A DNA stretch of 64,000 nucleotides from Christiangramia echinicola DSM 19838 (lineage in GTDB: Bacteria; Bacteroidota; Bacteroidia; Flavobacteriales; Flavobacteriaceae): contig NZ_AUHG01000011.1 in the NCBI RefSeq assembly GCF_000423065.1, positions 186,001 through 250,000 of the forward strand. Reading direction: 5' to 3'. The notes beneath the pieces are model-generated. The model saw only the letters and a program-made list of their open reading frames with translations, was not told the DNA's origin and made no database searches. Made by a program: the position numbers and the translations under genes. This document shows, one piece after another, positions 269-56,043 of this stretch; within the stretch, counting starts at the first letter, position 1; each line of letters opens with the position of its first letter.

Positions 269-296
269 AGCCGACTTTAACGAGTCGGCTTTTTTT
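269..296 (+). terminator. Rho-independent terminator after the M1-like gene
   Basis: A perfect 8-bp stem (AGCCGACT/AGTCGGCT) with a 6-base loop is followed directly by six T residues. It separates the truncated first gene from the TatA-like gene. Confidence 0.85.
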
Positions 297-328
297 ATGC
301 TTAGATTTGTATTTATATTTGTCCTGCT

Positions 329-610
329 ATGCATACGTTACCTTTATTTATTAGTGGAGCTGAAATTGCCTTTATCATGTTTATCCTGGTAATGGTATTT
401 GGAGCTGATAAAATCCCAGATATTGCCCGTGGTTTAGGTAAAGGGATGAAAGCCGTTAAAAACGCCTCGAACGACATTAAGAGTGAAATTCAAAAAAGTG
501 CTGAAAAGCAGGGGATTGATACAGATTTCACCAAAGATGTGCGTGGAGAGATAGATAGGGTTAAAGAGGATATCGATGAAATTACCGGTTCTGTAAGGCG
601 TAAACCCTAA
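329..610 (+). CDS. tatA: TatA/Hcf106-like twin-arginine translocation protein
   Basis: A 93-residue protein with the layout of TatA: a short N-terminal part, one membrane segment at about residues 8-26, the hinge FGADKIPDIARGLGKGM (compare FGPxKLPELGRxLG in the family), and then an amphipathic, charged helix to the end. TatA subunits associate with TatC to export folded proteins across the inner membrane. The hinge and the single membrane segment are seen directly; whether this copy is TatA or a TatB-like paralogue cannot be decided from length alone. No tatC lies in the window. A PAP2 phosphatase gene follows 12 bases downstream on the same strand, so the two are likely co-transcribed. Confidence 0.85.
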   Translation: MHTLPLFISGAEIAFIMFILVMVFGADKIPDIARGLGKGMKAVKNASNDIKSEIQKSAEKQGIDTDFTKDVRGEIDRVKEDIDEITGSVRRKP

Positions 611-1180: not shown

Positions 1181-1818
1181 ATCACCCGGGTTAAAGTAAG
1201 GCCATCTCTAATAGGTAAAATTACAGTTTCTACCCTGGGATCTTCATTAAGTAGTTTATTGTATTCCAAAAGTGCCTGAGTAGATTCATCATCTTTTCTT
1301 ACCTTCTCTATAACTTTACCGGACCATAGTACATTATCTGAAAGTATGATCCCGCCGGGATTCATTTTACTAATGATCAGTTCAAAATATTCCGGATAGT
1401 TAGGTTTGTCGGCATCTATAAAGACAAGATCAAAATTAGATTCGATACTGGGAATTATTTCAGTGGCATCTCCAAGATATTGCCTGATCTTACCTGCATG
1501 ATCAGACTCATTAAAGTATTTTTTCTGAAGATCGAAAAGCTCTTCATTTATATCTATAGTATGTAAAACACCATTTCTGGTTAGACCCTCGGCCAGGCAA
1601 AGAGCTGAATAACCTGTATAAGTTCCAATTTCCAGGATAGTTTCAGGCATTTTCATTTTAGATAATAGACTAAGTACCCTTCCCTGATAATGGCCACTTA
1701 ACATTCTTGGCTGCATTACCTTTTGATTAGTCTCGCGGTTCAACCTTGCCAGTAATTCCGGTTCACTTTGAGAATGAGAAACTATATAATCGTCTATATC
1801 TTCCGGTAAGAAATGCAT
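1177..1818 (-). CDS. SAM-dependent O-methyltransferase (catechol/caffeoyl-CoA OMT type)
   Basis: 213 residues, typical for the class I, metal-dependent bacterial O-methyltransferases. The SAM-binding motif ILEIGTYTGYSAL lies at about residues 61-73, the acidic motif VFIDADKPNYPEYF at about 132-145 and the metal-binding LSDNVLW at about 159-165. The natural substrate is unknown. A match to the Bacteroidota -7 element (TAATTTTG on the minus strand, 1835-1842) lies upstream of the start, without a good -33 box. It is divergent from kynU and converges with the PAP2 gene with a 4-base overlap. Confidence 0.85.
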   Translation of the reverse strand: MHFLPEDIDDYIVSHSQSEPELLARLNRETNQKVMQPRMLSGHYQGRVLSLLSKMKMPETILEIGTYTGYSALCLAEGLTRNGVLHTIDINEELFDLQKKYFNESDHAGKIRQYLGDATEIIPSIESNFDLVFIDADKPNYPEYFELIISKMNPGGIILSDNVLWSGKVIEKVRKDDESTQALLEYNKLLNEDPRVETVILPIRDGLTLTRVI

Positions 1819-48575: not shown

Positions 48576-49346
48576 TTAGGTTAAAGCTTTAACATTTTGG
48601 ACAAAACCTTTAATATTCGCTGTGCCATTTTCATTTAAATGTTTGATGAATGCACTTCCAATAATAGCCCCTTTTGCATATTGCGTAGCCTGATCGAAAG
48701 TTTCTTTATCTTTTATTCCGAAACCAACAATTTGCGGATTTTTTAGCTTCAGCTCATTTATTCTTTTGAAATAGGCTTTGGTGTTTTCGCCAAATCCGCT
48801 GGTAGAACCAGTAACGCTTGCGCTGCTAACCATATAAATAAAACCGTCTGAAACCGAATCAATAAACCTGATCCTGTCATTTGAAGTTTGCGGAGTGATC
48901 AAAAATATATTTATCAACCCATATTCTTCAAAAAGCTGTTTGTAATGCTCATGATATACATCTACCGGAAGGTCTGGAATTATGAGTCCGTCGATACCAG
49001 TTTCCTGACATTTCCTGCAAAAAGCTTCCACTCCATATTGAAGTATAGGGTTAAAATAACCCATTATTATCAGCGGGATTTCAACCTTATCTCGGATTCC
49101 CTCCAATTGCTGAAATAACTTTTCAGTAGTCATTCCATTTTTTAAAGCCCTGGTTGAACTTTCCTGGATAGTTGGGCCATCAGCTAAAGGATCACTAAAA
49201 GGTAACCCAATTTCAATAAAATCGACTCCATTCTTCTCCAGATCTACAATGATCTTTTCGGTGTCATTTATATCCGGATATCCCGCGGTAAAATATATAG
49301 AAAGCAGTTTTTGGTCTACCTGCAGTTTTTTATTTATTCTGTTCAT
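48576..49346 (-). CDS. trpA: Tryptophan synthase alpha chain
   Basis: 256 residues from the ATG at 49346; two more codons begin only at TTG. FIEIGLPFSDPLADGPTIQE (catalytic Glu and Asp), SSASVTGSTSGFG and IVGFGIKD are the signatures. The alpha chain cleaves indole-3-glycerol phosphate. It is the last gene of the trp operon, separated from trpB by 80 bases containing repeat copy C. Confidence 0.96.
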   Translation of the reverse strand: MNRINKKLQVDQKLLSIYFTAGYPDINDTEKIIVDLEKNGVDFIEIGLPFSDPLADGPTIQESSTRALKNGMTTEKLFQQLEGIRDKVEIPLIIMGYFNPILQYGVEAFCRKCQETGIDGLIIPDLPVDVYHEHYKQLFEEYGLINIFLITPQTSNDRIRFIDSVSDGFIYMVSSASVTGSTSGFGENTKAYFKRINELKLKNPQIVGFGIKDKETFDQATQYAKGAIIGSAFIKHLNENGTANIKGFVQNVKALT

Positions 49347-49365
49347 TTTCAATATTTCTTTGAAC

Positions 49366-49422
49366 CGTCATTCTGAACTTGTTTCAGAATCTCTTGAGAC
49401 GCTGAAATAAATTCGGCGTGAC
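49366..49422 (+). repeat. Palindromic intergenic repeat, copy C
   Basis: CGTCATTCTGAACTTGTTTC at the start folds perfectly as ATTCTGAA/TTCAGAAT with a 5-base loop; the end GTGAC complements the start CGTCA. It occupies the trpB-trpA gap and could tune expression of trpA or the stability of its message. Confidence 0.75.
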
Positions 49423-49426
49423 AGGT

Positions 49427-50608
49427 TTATAGATTAAAATATTCGATATAGGTATTAAGGTCCTTATCACCACGACCGGATAGATTCACTATTACTATAT
49501 CATCTTTCTCAAATTTTCTGGTCTCAAAAATAGCCAGGGCATGAGAGGTTTCTATTGCGGGAATAATTCCTTCCAGTTTTGCCAGTTCCAGGCCTGCTTT
49601 CATCGCATCTTCATCTGTAATACTAATGAATTCTCCACGGCCACTAGCATAAAGATTAGCATGCATTGGTCCCACGCCAGGATAATCTAACCCGGCAGAA
49701 ATTGAATAAGGCTCGGTAATTTGTCCATCACCGGTTTGCATGAGCAAGGTCTTGCTTCCGTGGATAATTCCGGCCTTACCAAGGGCAGAGGTAGCTGCGC
49801 TCTCACCTGAATCTACTCCTTTTCCGGCTGCTTCCACCGCAATGATTCCAACATCGGGATTATCGAGATAATGATAGTAGGCTCCGGCAGCATTACTCCC
49901 GCCGCCTACACAGGCCACTACAAAATCTGGATCTTCCTTGCCTTCTTTTTCCTTCAGCTGATTTTTGATCTCCTCAGAGATCACCGCCTGGAATCGCGCT
50001 ACCATATCTGGATAAGGATGAGGTCCCACTACAGAACCAATAATATAATGCGTATCCACCGGGTTATTAATCCAGTCTCGAATGGCTTCATTGGTCGCGT
50101 CCTTTAAGGTTCGGCTACCAGATTTTGCCGGAACAACGGTAGCTCCAAGCATTTTCATACGTGCAACATTTGGCGCCTGTCTGTCAATATCGATCTCGCC
50201 CATATAAACAATGCATTCCATTCCCATAAGTGCACAAACTGTTGCTGTAGCAACTCCATGCTGACCAGCACCAGTTTCAGCAATAATGCGTTTTTTGCCG
50301 AGTTTTTGCGCCATCAGGATCTGCCCTATGGTGTTATTTACCTTATGAGCGCCAGTATGACAAAGATCTTCCCTTTTCAGGTATACTTTCGTACCATATT
50401 TTTCACTGAATCTTTTTGCATAATAGAGCGGAGTAGGGCGTCCTACATATTCTTTTAGTAGCTCCTTGAATTCTTTCTGAAAGGATTCTTCTTTCATAAT
50501 GTTCAGGTAGCGTGAACGCAATTCCTCAACATTGGGATATAACATTTCGGGAATATAGGCACCGCCAAATTCTCCATAATATCCTTTTTCATCAACCTGA
50601 TAGCTCAT
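49427..50608 (-). CDS. trpB: Tryptophan synthase beta chain
   Basis: 393 residues. The PLP lysine is in [13 protein letters not shown] (about 86), the phosphate loop is [11 protein letters not shown], and the N-terminal [14 protein letters not shown] matches the TrpB1 type that pairs with TrpA. It condenses indole with serine. It lies 1 base after trpF. Confidence 0.97.
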
Positions 50609-50609
50609 T

Positions 50610-51323
50610 CTATGAATTTATATTGGTTTTGAAATCTTTCAATTCCTTTAATTTTTTTAATCCGGGTTTCAATTCAAATTTGCTGTTTACATCAACAGCA
50701 TATAATAATCCCGGTTTGCCATTTCTGTGAAAATGACTTTTCAATTCGGCAATAGCTCGGCCATGTTCCGGTCCAATCCCTCCACTTAAGAAAAATGGAG
50801 TACTAGAGGGGTAATTTTTCAGGATCTGCCAGTCAAATTCAGTACCGTTGCCACCGCGAAGTTTTCCTTTGGTATCGAATAGAAAATAATCAACGATTCC
50901 CTCGAAAGGTTTAATTTGCTGAAAATCGAAATCATCGCCAACAGAAAAAACCTTAATGATCTCCGGAGTATTTCCTGATTTTTGAAGTTCTCCTTTTAGA
51001 TCCTTAGCGTATCCGGCATCTTCTTCTCCATGTAACTGAATGGCATTGAGATTGTACTTTAGGACTTTCGCCTTAATTTCTTCAATTTCAGCATTGACAA
51101 AAACACCGGCCTTTTTTATTTCCGAAGATATTTCTGGTAGTTCACCGTCAAAATATCTTGGAGATTTTTCATAAAATATCAAGCCCATATAATCGGGTTG
51201 TAATTCAGCTACCTGAATCATATTTCCGGGTTGCTGCATACCGCAAACCTTAAGACTCAATCCAGAACTTTGTCCTGATGCCGAAGTAGTCAGGGCTTTT
51301 TCATTCATGTTCTCTTGATGCAT
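50610..51323 (-). CDS. trpF: Phosphoribosylanthranilate isomerase
   Basis: 237 residues with an N-terminal low-complexity extension of about 22 residues (Ser/Ala rich) before the family start LKVCGM. The active-site Cys and the C-terminal [15 protein letters not shown] (phosphate binding) are present, and [15 protein letters not shown] contains the catalytic Asp. An internal ATG at 51308 would shorten the extension by only five residues. It abuts trpC directly. Confidence 0.94.
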
Positions 51324-52112
51324 TTATACCTTAGATTTTAATTCTGTGATAAATTCTTTCGCTGCAGCTCCGGGGTTATCGGTTTTCATGAAATTTTCAC
51401 CAATAAGAAATCCTTCGTAACCATAATTCTTAAGTTCAGCTATCGCTGCAGTATTACTAATTCCACTTTCTGAAACTTTCACAACTCCATCAGGAATTAG
51501 CTTAGCTAATTTTTTCGAATTATCAATGCTTACCTCAAAGGTTTTGAGGTTTCGGTTATTCACCCCGATCATATCTGCATTTACCCTCAAAGACTTCTCC
51601 AATTCTTCTTCATTGTGAACTTCTAAAAGAACATCCATTCCCAGATATTTTGCTGCATCTGCAAGATAAATTAATTGTTCTTGCGTCAAAACCGAAGCAA
51701 TAAGAAGAATAGCATCTGCACCGTAAGCTTTAGCTTCAGTGATCTGGTATTCATCTATCATAAATTCCTTTCTAAGTATCGGTATTTGAACTGAAGCTCT
51801 GGCATATAATAGATCTTCCAGGGAGCCACCAAAATATTTCCCATCTGTGAGGACTGAAATTCCTGAAGCTTCAGCATTTTCATAACCTTTAGCCACATCC
51901 TGAACATTTAAATTCTGGTTTATAACAGATTTTGAAGGAGATCTCCTTTTATGTTCAGTAATTATTCCTGAGCCGGTCTTTATACTTTCAGCCAGCGAAA
52001 CACATTTCCGGTCGAATAACACTGAATTTTCCAGTTGAGATACCGGAATCAGCGATTTTTTTAATTCAATTTCCCTGAATTTATCTGCAATGATCTTATC
52101 GAGAATATTCAT
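51324..52112 (-). CDS. trpC: Indole-3-glycerol phosphate synthase
   Basis: 262 residues. IITEHKRRSPSKSVI (catalytic Glu/Lys), PILRKEFMIDEYQITEAKAY, LLEVHNEEEL, IGVNNRNLKTF and VSESGI follow the family order. It is a separate gene, not fused to trpF. Its ATG overlaps the trpD stop by one base and its stop touches the trpF start. Confidence 0.96.
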   Translation of the reverse strand: MNILDKIIADKFREIELKKSLIPVSQLENSVLFDRKCVSLAESIKTGSGIITEHKRRSPSKSVINQNLNVQDVAKGYENAEASGISVLTDGKYFGGSLEDLLYARASVQIPILRKEFMIDEYQITEAKAYGADAILLIASVLTQEQLIYLADAAKYLGMDVLLEVHNEEELEKSLRVNADMIGVNNRNLKTFEVSIDNSKKLAKLIPDGVVKVSESGISNTAAIAELKNYGYEGFLIGENFMKTDNPGAAAKEFITELKSKV

Positions 52113-53113
52113 TAAATTCCGTTTTGACTTAATTCCTGTAATTTTTTAAAACTTTCAAACGCCTTTCCCGATTCAATTGATTCTTTAGCAGCATCGAAAC
52201 CTTCCTGCGGACTCAAATTTCTTGAAGTTGCAATAGCCATTCCAGCATTTGCACAAACCACATTATTCTGCGCCTCTGTTCCGTTTCCTTTTAATATGTT
52301 GGTCAGGATTTCGGCAGAACTTTCTATAGAACCACCACCAGCAATTTCAGAAATTTTTAATTCTGAAACTCCAAAATCTGAAGGTTTTAAGATTCTTTCA
52401 GAAGTATTGCTAATGCTTTTAGTTTCACCAGTCAGCGAAATCTCATCGTAACCATCTAAAGCGTGCAAAATGGTATAATTCTTATCGGTATTCTGATATA
52501 GATAGGCGTACATTCTGGCTAACTCCAGACTAAAAACCCCAACCAGTTGATTTTTTGGAAAAGCCGGATTTACCATCGGGCCTAACATGTTAAAGAATGT
52601 TTTCACAGCAAGACTTTTTCTCACCGGAGCAACATTCTTCATCGCAGGGTGAAATAACGGGGCATGTAAAATGCAAATATTAGCCTGGTCTATACATTTT
52701 TCCAGAAATCCGGCATCGTTGCTGAATTTCATTCCCAGGTATTCCATCACATTCGAACTACCACTAACTGAAGAAACTCCGTAGTTTCCATGCTTGGCAA
52801 CCTTCACGCCTGCTCCTGCAGTAACAAATGAAGAGGTAGTTGAAATATTGAAAGTATCCTTTCCGTCGCCACCGGTTCCACAAAGGTCTACCGCCTCATA
52901 GCCTGAAAGATCAACTTTAATACATAGTTCTAATAGCGCATCACGAAAACCTTCCAGCTCTTCGATGGTTATACTTCGCATCATATAAACGGTAAGAAAA
53001 GCCGCAATCTGCGTTTCGTTATATTTACCTTCAGAAATATTGAAAATAACCTGTTTAGCCTCCTCAGTACTTATGGTTTCATGGCTTATGAGCCTGTTTA
53101 GAAGTTCTTTCAT
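52112..53113 (-). CDS. trpD: Anthranilate phosphoribosyltransferase
   Basis: 333 residues. The PRPP-binding GTGGDGKDTFNISTTSSFV is at about 80-98, with KHGNYGVSSVSGSSNVMEYL and the anthranilate-binding helices. No fusion with trpG. Repeat copy D fills the 107 bases to trpG. Confidence 0.96.
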   Translation of the reverse strand: MKELLNRLISHETISTEEAKQVIFNISEGKYNETQIAAFLTVYMMRSITIEELEGFRDALLELCIKVDLSGYEAVDLCGTGGDGKDTFNISTTSSFVTAGAGVKVAKHGNYGVSSVSGSSNVMEYLGMKFSNDAGFLEKCIDQANICILHAPLFHPAMKNVAPVRKSLAVKTFFNMLGPMVNPAFPKNQLVGVFSLELARMYAYLYQNTDKNYTILHALDGYDEISLTGETKSISNTSERILKPSDFGVSELKISEIAGGGSIESSAEILTNILKGNGTEAQNNVVCANAGMAIATSRNLSPQEGFDAAKESIESGKAFESFKKLQELSQNGI

Positions 53114-53132
53114 AGATGTGATTTCTTCTCTG

Positions 53133-53209
53133 CGTCAAGCTGAAATTGGATAACTACGTATCTACAATTTCAGCTTCTCTAGAGATCCTGATATGAATTC
53201 AGGATGACG
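53133..53209 (-). repeat. Palindromic intergenic repeat, copy D (inverted orientation)
   Basis: Read on the minus strand it starts CGTCATCCTGAATTCA and ends CAGCTTGACG. Two hairpins are perfect: AAGCTGAAATTG/CAATTTCAGCTT (12 bp, with an extra GATA/TATC inside) and ATCCTGA/TCAGGAT (7 bp); the outer CGTCA/TGACG also pair. It is the longest of four copies (77 bases) and lies in the trpG-trpD gap. Confidence 0.8.
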
Positions 53210-53220
53210 ATTTTTTAAAT

Positions 53221-53853
53221 TTATATTATTGGTTTTTCTGATGTAGAGGTTTCCTCTTTTTGGGTATTACCTGAATCAGCACCATTAACCCAGTTTCTTA
53301 TCATCTTTTTGCCATCTGGAGTCAGCACAGATTCAGGATGAAATTGTACTCCACGAACATCATATTCAGTATGTCTTAAAGACATAATTTCACCCTTTTC
53401 ATCGTAACTAGTAGCCTGTAAAACAGGTGGCAAATTCTTTTTTACGACCCAGGAGTGATACCTACCAACCTGTATTTCTTTATCAAGACCTGCAAATAAG
53501 TATTCATCATCCACGAATAATTCTATTTTGGTAGCAACACCATGATAGACTTCATCAAGATTTAAAAGGGTTCCACCAAAAACTTCTCCTATAGCCTGCA
53601 TTCCTAAACAAACGCCAAGAATACTTTTGGTTGAGGCGTATTTTTCGATAATTGGCTTTAATAAGCCTGCTTCTTCAGGGATACCTGGGCCGGGTGATAA
53701 TAATATTTTATCATAATCTGCAACATCATCAATATGAAGTTGATCATTACGTCTCACTACCACCTGGCAATCGAGTTCCTCCAGATAATGCACCAGATTA
53801 TATACGAAAGAATCGTAATTATCTATAACCAGTATTTTCTTCTTCTCTTTCAT
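53221..53853 (-). CDS. trpG: Anthranilate synthase component II (glutamine amidotransferase)
   Basis: 210 residues from the ATG at 53853 (MKEKKKILVIDNYDSFVYNL); an 8-residue longer frame starts with TTG inside trpE. LLSPGPGIPEEAG, the nucleophile Cys in GVCLGMQAIG (about 83) and VQFHPESVLTPDG complete the class I amidotransferase triad. It has a 20-residue Thr/Ser/Glu tail. It starts 1 base after the trpE stop, in keeping with a 1:1 complex. Confidence 0.95.
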   Translation of the reverse strand: MKEKKKILVIDNYDSFVYNLVHYLEELDCQVVVRRNDQLHIDDVADYDKILLSPGPGIPEEAGLLKPIIEKYASTKSILGVCLGMQAIGEVFGGTLLNLDEVYHGVATKIELFVDDEYLFAGLDKEIQVGRYHSWVVKKNLPPVLQATSYDEKGEIMSLRHTEYDVRGVQFHPESVLTPDGKKMIRNWVNGADSGNTQKEETSTSEKPII

Positions 53854-53854
53854 T

Positions 53855-55249
53855 CTAGATTTCTTCAGCAATTTCAAGGGCTTTGGTCAAAGCACCTAAT
53901 TTATTATATACTTCCTGTAATTCATTTTCAGGCTTGGATTCTGAAACGATTCCCGCGCCCGCCTGGTAATGCAACTCGTGGTTTTTACTTACAAAAGACC
54001 TGATGATAATAGCATGATTGAAGTTTCCTTCAAAATCCATAAATCCAATTGCCCCCCCATAAGCACTACGATTCACATTTTCGAACTTCTCGATCAATTT
54101 TAAAGCCATAGGTTTTGGAGCTCCACTGAGTGTTCCTGCTGGAAATGTATCTGCCACAATTTGGGGAGTGGGAACTTTCGAGTCAATTTTACCGGTAACC
54201 TTACTAACTAAATGGATCACATGAGAAAAGAATTGGATCTCCCTGTAATTTTCAACCTTTACATCGCTCCCGTTTCTACTCAGATCATTACGGGCCAGAT
54301 CAACTAACATTACATGCTCTGCATTCTCTTTTTCATCTGCGGCAAGTTCCTTAGCTATTTCAGCATCTTTTTCATCATTTCCGGTCCTTTTAAATGTTCC
54401 TGCAATAGGATGAATTTCAGCTCTACCTTTATCCACGACTAATTGAGCTTCAGGAGAACTTCCGAAGATCTTAAAATTCCCATAGTCGAAATAGAACAGG
54501 TAAGGGGAGGGGTTTACATTACGTAAAGCCCGGTAAACATTAAATTCATCTCCCTTAAATTTCTGAGAAAACCTTCTGGAAAGTACCAATTGGAAAACAT
54601 CGCCACGATGACAATGCTCTTTGGCGGCAGCTACAACAGCTCTGTATTCCTCATCGGTTAAATTAGATTCAGGTTCATTACTTCTACTGAAATTATAGGA
54701 AGCGAAATTCTTCACCTTCAATAATTGCTCGATTTCCTCAATCTTATTTTCAGATTCATAAGAATGGTCAAAAATATAGGCCTCATTCTTAAAATGATTT
54801 ATGGCAATGATATTTTGATATACCGCGTAATAAATATCAGGGATCTGTAGATCTTTCTCTCTTCTGGTAACCTCCACGTCTTCAAAATATCTTACTGAAT
54901 CATAAGCGATATAGCCGAAAAGTCCGTTGTTGATGAACTTAAATTCTGAAGAATCTGCCTTGAATTTCTGAGAAAAATTTTGAATCGCTTCAGGTACAGA
55001 AACAGATTTATCCACAGTCCTGGTTTTGACACTTCCGTCAGGAAAAGTCTCTGTTATCTGATCATTTTCAACCTTAAATGAAGCGATTGGATTGCAACAG
55101 ATATAAGAGAAACTATTATCGCTGGCGTGATAATCACTACTTTCCAGGAGCAGACTATTGGGATATTTATCCCGAAGTTTAAGATAGATACTTACCGGAG
55201 TAATAGTATCTGCCAGGATCTTCTTGTATATTGTATTAAGTTCAAACAT
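53855..55249 (-). CDS. trpE: Anthranilate synthase component I
   Basis: 464 residues from the ATG at 55249 ([20 protein letters not shown]). The longer frame to 55294 runs into the attenuator and lacks an ATG start. The N-terminal LLLESSD is the LLES motif that binds tryptophan in feedback-inhibited enzymes; the C-terminal chorismate-binding domain carries [32 protein letters not shown] and [20 protein letters not shown]. Expression is predicted to be governed by the upstream leader peptide and terminator (55271-55424), so this gene appears to be controlled both by attenuation and by feedback. Confidence 0.96.
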
Positions 55250-55270: not shown

Positions 55271-55300
55271 AAAAAAAGGCTTGTCGTGAGACAAGCCTTT
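55271..55300 (-). terminator. Attenuator terminator upstream of trpE
   Basis: On the minus strand AAAGGCTTGT, a CTCACG loop, ACAAGCCTTT, then more T residues: a perfect 10-bp stem of high stability with a T run, 21 bases before the trpE ATG. A terminator between promoter and first structural gene is the defining part of an attenuator. Confidence 0.88.
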
Positions 55301-55337
55301 GTAATTTCTATATAGGAAATAGCAGTTTAGCTCACGA
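55284..55337 (-). promoter_or_regulatory. Predicted antiterminator pairing of the trp leader
   Basis: TCGTGAG (55331-55337, spanning the leader peptide stop codon) is complementary over 7 bases to CTCACGA (55284-55290, the terminator loop and one base of its 3' arm). After a 1-base mismatch, TAA (55327-55329) can further pair with TTG of the 5' arm. A ribosome at the stop codon would cover this strand; one stalled at the Trp codons about 20 bases upstream would leave it free. Folding energies were not computed. Confidence 0.6.
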
Positions 55338-55379
55338 GTTTTGACGTAAGTTATTCCACCACCAGTTATTTCTATTCAT
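55332..55379 (-). CDS. trpL: trp operon leader peptide (Trp-Trp-Trp)
   Basis: A 15-residue open frame MNRNNWWWNNLRQNS read on the minus strand, ending in TGA. Three consecutive TGG codons in 15 are far beyond chance given the low frequency of Trp. It lies between a consensus promoter and the terminator before trpE. A further in-frame ATG three codons upstream (55388) could extend it to 18 residues. It would act as a sensor of charged tRNA-Trp, the peptide itself having no function. The gene symbol is used by analogy with proteobacterial trp leaders. Confidence 0.85.
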   Translation of the reverse strand: MNRNNWWWNNLRQNS

Positions 55380-55393
55380 TTTTAACATGACTT

Positions 55394-55424
55394 CAAAGAT
55401 AGAGATGAAATTATTCTAAACAAA
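55394..55424 (-). promoter_or_regulatory. Predicted promoter of the trp operon
   Basis: TTTG (55421-55424), 19 bases, TATCTTTG (55394-55401) on the minus strand: a perfect fit to the Bacteroidota consensus. Transcription would start a few bases downstream and the leader peptide would begin almost at the 5' end of the RNA. Confidence 0.8.
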
Positions 55425-55473: not shown

Positions 55474-56043
55474 TTAGAACTTAAGGTTTACATCAAGTTC
55501 GAAATTGTCATAAATCGTCTTGTCTCCCAGGTTATCGAAGAAACTTCCTGAACCATATCTTACATTATATTTAGATCTGTCTATTGTAAGATGAGTTTTT
55601 GCTGAATCTTCATTTACGCTAAGGTCGAAAGTAATTGGATGAGTTTCATTTTTGATCGTAAGATCTCCAACAATTCCATATTTACCGTTTCCTTTAGATG
55701 CAGCACTTGTAATCACAAGTTTCGCCTCTGGATGCTTTTCAATTCCGAAGAAATCTTCAGACTTCAAATGACCTTCCAGTTTCCCTTTATTTTCACCAGA
55801 AAGATCAGTTACAGTAATAGAACTCATATCCATTACAAATTCTCCTCCTACGATCTTATCGTCTTCCATCATAATGTGACCACTTTTAAGCTCAATAGTT
55901 CCATTGTGGGAACCAGTTACTTTTTCTCCAGTCCAGGCAATTGTACTTGCTTCAACATCTACTTCTTTTTTCGTATTTGTAAATGCTACGGTTGCTAAAA
56001 CGATTACAGCAGCTAGTCCGCCTTTTAAAATTCTATTTTTCAT
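55474..56043 (-). CDS. yceI: YceI-family periplasmic lipid-binding protein
   Basis: 189 residues with a signal peptide and the YceI barrel: STIAWTGEKVTGSHNGTIEL at about 33-52, LEGHLKSEDFFGIEKHPEAK, GDLTIKNETHPITF and IDRSKYNVRYGSGSFFDNLG. YceI proteins bind isoprenoid-type lipids in the periplasm. It is the last gene of the MarR operon, 19 bases after the nitroreductase gene. Confidence 0.92.
   Translation of the reverse strand: MKNRILKGGLAAVIVLATVAFTNTKKEVDVEASTIAWTGEKVTGSHNGTIELKSGHIMMEDDKIVGGEFVMDMSSITVTDLSGENKGKLEGHLKSEDFFGIEKHPEAKLVITSAASKGNGKYGIVGDLTIKNETHPITFDLSVNEDSAKTHLTIDRSKYNVRYGSGSFFDNLGDKTIYDNFELDVNLKF

Follow-up and report, generated by a model that had tools for sequence, protein, structure and literature searches.

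The stretch of DNA analysed here, called the window, comprises 64,000 nucleotides from Christiangramia echinicola DSM 19838 and carries on its minus strand the trp genes trpEGDCFBA (48576-55249), of which trpE (53855-55249) is the first. The trpG, trpD, trpC, trpB and trpA genes score over a curated NCBIfam cut-off, and trpE and trpF are named by their best match below cut-off. Among named genomes, the closest TrpE is that of a Christiangramia sp. (88%), in a search that may omit the window's own records. TrpE contains the LLES motif (SLLLESSDY) already picked out in an earlier reading of the DNA letters (hereafter the sequence-only reading), a presumed feedback site. The putative trp attenuator element occupies positions 55424-55271 of the same strand and ends 21 bases upstream of trpE.

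A covariance-model scan of the 64 kb identified this element as a match to the Rfam family RF01692 (55290-55408, minus strand; model positions 1-131), with 58.8 bits against a gathering cut-off of 49 and an E-value of 1.3e-4. No other Rfam family is over its cut-off in the window, where the T-box model has no match at gathering score either. RF01692, or Bacteroid-trp, was published in silico (Weinberg et al., 2010; PMC2864571), where it is listed among candidate cis-regulatory elements of Bacteroidetes; its placement before trp genes in Bacteroidota is found here too, with trpEGDCFBA lying downstream of the element. In a 2019 paper (PMC6414381), RF01692 is described as a conserved element upstream of the Flavobacterium psychrophilum trp operon and compared with the E. 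coli leader; the family name also appears in a third paper (PMC4977773). Being an RF01692 member, the element is therefore already catalogued and not a new kind, and the novelty suggested by the sequence-only reading does not hold. Its statement of being unaware of an experimentally described example is in line with our searches; no experimental or mechanistic work on the RF01692 element was recognised in the open-access literature, the passages concerned in PMC4833913 and PMC2395257 giving no description of it. What is added here is the apparent wiring, which is absent from the literature passages on the element and of which a testable model can now be given, together with signs of sister leaders. 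The phylum concerned has a promoter type of its own, and the model describes how amino-acid genes may be controlled in it.

The promoter had been read as TTTG-N19-TAnnTTTG, and it is indeed present and of the Flavobacteria type, with TTTG at 55424-55421, a 19-base spacer and TATCTTTG at 55401-55394 (minus strand). Of 177 sequences, 167 have a TAnnTTTG box no more than 60 bases before the start of the leader, compared with 6% of shuffles, and TTTG stands 16-23 bases above it in 98 of the 177 (0.4% of shuffles). Because 5 bases separate the end of the promoter box of the window from the ATG of the leader, the transcript is probably close to leaderless, starting a few bases before this codon. A gap of 4-5 bases recurs in 40 of the 167 box-bearing sequences, the commonest gap in the others being 17-19 bases. 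A near-leaderless start was also considered as a general trait and rejected, since most relatives have a longer gap between box and ATG.

The leader ORF (55332-55388, minus strand), whose start is set by homology, encodes MLKMNRNNWWWNNLRQNS before its stop codon and includes the three consecutive Trp codons reported earlier (TGG at 55364-55356, minus strand). The previous estimate of 15 codons starts from a downstream in-frame ATG (55379); the leader is probably 18 codons long, because the first Trp codon is preceded by an ATG at exactly 8 codons in 168 of the 179 distinct canonical sequences, among them the window. An in-frame ATG is absent from 4 of 177 sequences, and the Trp run consists of three codons in 170 of the 177 and of two in the other 7.

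Four segments can be delineated on the minus strand of the element. Segment 1 (55345-55363) extends from GGTGGTGG to CTTACG (55350-55345) and is drawn from the minimum free energy fold, its CTTACG changing in step with segment 2 in relatives. Segment 2 (55318-55337) consists of TCGTGAG (55337-55331), inside which the leader stop TGA sits, as previously seen, and of bases downstream; it can pair either with segment 1, giving the protector, or with the terminator loop, giving the antiterminator. The core of segment 3 is CTCACGA (55284-55290), made of the terminator loop and flanking bases and, as had been pointed out, complementary to TCGTGAG. The intrinsic terminator (3:4) is formed by AAAGGCTTGTC-TCAC-GACAAGCCTTT and a T-run (55271-55300, -15.6 kcal/mol). 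The element folds with a z-score of -3.4, none of 200 shuffles being equally stable. The pattern GGCTTGTC-N(2-9)-GACAAGCC has a single exact match in the genome, namely this terminator. The stem GGCTTGTC/GACAAGCC (55300-55275) is nearly invariant across Flavobacteriaceae loci, which stem pairing alone does not demand.

Regarding the protector helix 1:2, CTTACG:CGTGAG forms with P ~0.99 in the free fold of the window, alongside the terminator; the Trp codons take part in this helix too, which extends into the bases after CGTGAG. Many pairs of the hairpin drawn in the Rfam consensus are marked as non-standard in the window, and a related hairpin folds there with P ~0.99. In relatives, the two strands of the helix vary in step (CTTACG:CGTGAG in 39, TTTACG:CGTGAA in 29 and ATTACG:CGTGAT in 3). 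A 1:2 helix of at least 6 bp is present in 56% of 172 relatives versus 8.5% of shuffles, and one of at least 4 bp in 66% of them versus 47%; by the rule applied, the core helix is missing from 58 of the 172. The sequence-only reading had proposed an attenuator with only two alternative structures, simpler than that of enterics. Segment 2 has a second partner upstream, so that four segments instead appear to be at work, as in the enteric attenuator, segment 2 being directed mainly at the terminator loop.

Conservation of the 2:3 pairing was followed in 203 family-type loci, of which 188 were matched, giving 179 distinct sequences with the window included. TCGTGA and TCACGA occur together in 163 of the 179; TCGTGA accompanies a canonical terminator in 169 sequences, of which these 163 have TCACGA in the loop. 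Taken with the divergent loci described below, the relatives support the pairing between TCGTGAG and the terminator loop put forward earlier. The complementarity is damaged in some relatives, such as loci L196 and L203, and L182 is one of six without TCACGA. TCGTGA follows the first Trp codon at 26-28 bases in 166 of the 169 sequences, whereas the leader stop falls inside TCGTGA (+3), where the window has it, in 112 sequences and at other positions between -11 and +8 in 57, so that the distance between Trp codons and segment 2 is held more strictly than the position of the stop. A seventh 2:3 pair is Watson-Crick in 60 of 163 sequences versus 36.8 in shuffles, a comparison confounded by relatedness, and when wobbles are counted the observed value is equalled or exceeded in 463 of 10000 shuffles. 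A further candidate, the pairing of segment 2 with the 5' arm of the terminator (helix B), attains at least 5 bp in 57 of 171 canonical relatives (33%) versus ~21% of shuffled segments; it is not claimed, because this enrichment is weak.

With regard to distribution, matches to RF01692 at E<=0.001 were obtained in 275 of the 397 family genomes (241 over cut-off) and in 30 of 296 genomes of the phylum, in both cases with strict filters by which weak matches are lost. Loci selected through RF01692 are not independent evidence for conservation, and TrpE-selected loci were used for that. Among the best 80 of 590 TrpE-selected loci, 69 fit Trp codons followed by a family-type terminator by pattern and 7 more do so on inspection; two of the remaining loci begin inside the element and two are without upstream DNA. 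Trp codons and terminator are thus found in 76 of 76 loci having enough upstream DNA. From the 122 family genomes without an RF01692 match, 10 of high completeness were taken from among 20 listed: a TrpE orthologue is present in 8 of the 10, the other two giving weak matches only, and in 8 of 8 there is a terminator and a leader whose Trp run is WW or WWW. In a sample of the phylum drawn by TrpE (129 of 148 genomes), a frame with two or more Trp codons lies nearby, together with a terminator recognised automatically or by eye, in 18 of 18 loci that share the order or class of the window but not its family. In other classes, leader and terminator occur in 13 of 17 loci sampled from 96, which suggests that the Rfam model covers a part only; a Trp-rich frame with a terminator was not found in the other four of these 17 (L252, L261, L263 and L264). 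In another family of the same class, locus L097 has an RF01692 leader not before trpE but before a trpB-like gene, named by its likeness to the TrpB of the window.

Because the 2:3 core is nearly invariant within the family, the evidence for this pairing was taken from distant loci. Thirty-eight divergent loci were selected because they have both leader and terminator, irrespective of complementarity, with dinucleotide shuffles as controls. The leader segment is complementary to its own terminator with a combined z of -9.4 (n=38), 17 of the 38 loci being individually below 0.05; the window alone is not significant in this test (z -1.56, p 0.09). In a swap test of 35 loci, in which G+C is uncontrolled, the mean energy of leaders with their own terminators is -18.5 kcal/mol versus -14.1 kcal/mol, and none of 20000 permutations reaches the own value. 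The swap test was run without L097, L122 and L249, which have no terminator by rule, and took L236 with a wrong terminator; in the 38-locus test the terminators of these four were set by hand. The near-duplicates L240 and L245 and the four loci L252, L261, L263 and L264 were left out of both. In L123, for example, GGATTCAG of the leader pairs with CTGAATCC of a terminator of unrelated sequence. In distant lineages, segment 2 may be directed at the 5' arm of the terminator (L239, L254 and L255), or its target may take in much of the 3' arm (L236 and L250).

The effect of a ribosome was examined by folding RNA ending just past the loop and full-length RNA, with assumed ribosome footprints. In RNA ending just past the loop, P(2:3) is ~0.12 when the RNA is free, ~0.99 for the inner pairs with a ribosome on any Trp codon, and 0 when the ribosome sits at the stop. 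Once the RNA is complete, the terminator 3:4 has P>0.9999 in every case, stalled ribosome included, and 2:3 loses. Since the full-length terminator always wins, control must be co-transcriptional, and a kinetic argument is needed.

According to the model that we propose, RNA polymerase would start very near the leader ATG, a few bases ahead of it, which would let a ribosome load early, and the reading of the three Trp codons by this ribosome probably decides between termination and continuation. When charged tRNA-Trp is scarce, the ribosome would stall on TGG-TGG-TGG and cover segment 1; segment 2 (TCGTGAG), once freed, would capture the emerging terminator loop before the 3' arm exists, and transcription would proceed into trpE. 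When Trp is plentiful, the ribosome reaching the stop inside segment 2 would mask this segment and let the terminator form; in an untranslated leader, helix 1:2 would hold segment 2, with the same outcome. Such a switch would require 2:3 to form first and to delay the terminator stem during transcription. The bases taken up by 2:3 are mostly those of the loop, and a terminator bound by its loop might still be functional.

Ribosome-mediated attenuation, as formulated in the sequence-only reading, is upheld in outline though not in detail, and the element is, with high confidence, a four-segment member of RF01692 that attenuates transcription of the trp operon through the ribosome on its leader. 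A two-state version without the protector hairpin, as drawn in the sequence-only reading, in which only the masking of TCGTGAG by a ribosome at the stop codon counts, has in its favour that no helix beyond 2:3 and 3:4 is needed to explain the stalled and completed states; it also accords with the 58 relatives lacking a short CGTGA helix by rule and with the stop lying inside TCGTGA in most of the 169 sequences. It is nevertheless unlikely, given the near-certain CTTACG:CGTGAG helix in the free fold of the window, the in-step changes of segments 1 and 2, the 57 sequences with the stop elsewhere, and the stability of the leader hairpin over shuffles in the divergent loci (combined z -6.4, n=38).

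The location of the terminator, in a short intergenic gap that follows a same-strand gene (55474-56043), would also fit a constitutive transcript end or a weak intergenic terminator beside an ORF that is Trp-rich by chance. This is very improbable in view of the fixed spacing between Trp codons and TCGTGA, the widespread promoter box, the RF01692 match and the recurrence of leader and terminator in other families and classes. T-box leaders, TRAP-like protein sites and riboswitches can each drive a terminator before trp genes, and a Trp sensor of one of these types is a further alternative; against it stand the lack of any further Rfam family at cut-off in the window and the nature of the conserved feature, i.e., codons in frame at a fixed spacing, and we give it just as little credence.

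The element resembles RF01692 by its score over the curated cut-off, its position before a trp operon, its Trp codons and the presence of the terminator 5' arm at the 3' end of the match. However, the Rfam consensus ends within the terminator, and the leader hairpin alone is paired in its structure line, so that the 2:3 antiterminator and the full terminator of the window are missing from it; moreover, the same architecture is found in all 8 TrpE-bearing genomes picked for having no RF01692 match. The enteric trpL leader comprises a short leader peptide with Trp codons, the alternatives 1:2, 2:3 and 3:4, and a coupling of ribosome and polymerase, all of which recur in the proposed model. In contrast to trpL, the element has three Trp codons, probably a very short 5' UTR, a stop inside segment 2 and a segment 2 that seems to aim mainly at the terminator loop, while an enteric-like targeting of the 5' arm is suggested in some other Bacteroidota loci (the above-mentioned L239, L254 and L255).

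There are signs that the same genome has switches like that of trp for histidine and aromatic amino acids. The candidates before hisG, pheA and ilvD resemble the trp leader in having a short ORF rich in cognate codons followed by an intrinsic terminator, and differ from it in their codons and terminators; none of 10 his, phe and ilv loci, nor one thrA locus, has an Rfam match at cut-off. Before hisG (locus L270, own genome G000:C6, ~1200-1350, plus strand), the His leader MRNYTVHHHHFSTHAHAR is followed by the terminator AACCCGTTTGA-gcaa-TCAAACGGGTT. A His-rich leader with a terminator is found in 16 of 16 hisG-bearing genomes among 20 relatives searched, most of them from one genus, and 9 of 28 further hisG loci in a phylum sample pass a similar rule. 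Before pheA (L352, own genome G000:C7, from ~1343, minus strand), the Phe/Tyr leader MTSIINWNAFYYFYFYTRDRIGNAI and a terminator are present, and a Phe/Tyr-rich leader with a terminator was recognised by eye in 10 of 11 pheA loci. Before ilvD (L287, own genome G000:C2, from ~1084, plus strand), the Ile/Val/Leu-rich leader MITAVQNIIASIIEVLFVFENRP precedes a terminator, such an arrangement being seen in 8 of 13 loci examined (of 15), own included. Complementarity between leader and terminator in chosen loci, which are not independent because many are close relatives, gives combined z-scores of -11.3 for his (18/25), -4.1 for phe (6/10) and -2.5 for ilv (7/8), the ilv pairing being weak (n=7, two loci with positive z).

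Attenuation may well be general in this genome, as its his, phe and ilv candidates suggest. It seems somewhat more plausible than the contrary that Flavobacteria and much of the Bacteroidota control amino-acid biosynthesis through ribosome-mediated attenuators (trp, his, phe/tyr and ilv), most of them uncatalogued by Rfam, in which the antiterminator target would slide among the 5' arm, loop and 3' arm of the terminator by lineage, the loop capture of trp being one point in this range. Upstream of thrA (L356, own genome G000:C2, ~288-401, plus strand) lies a Thr/Ile-rich frame of 37 codons with a GTG start and ending in ITITRITPFGVLTI. No terminator was seen after this frame in the loci looked at, and similar endings occur in 4 of 5 of them; the frame is possibly a leader or an arrest peptide.
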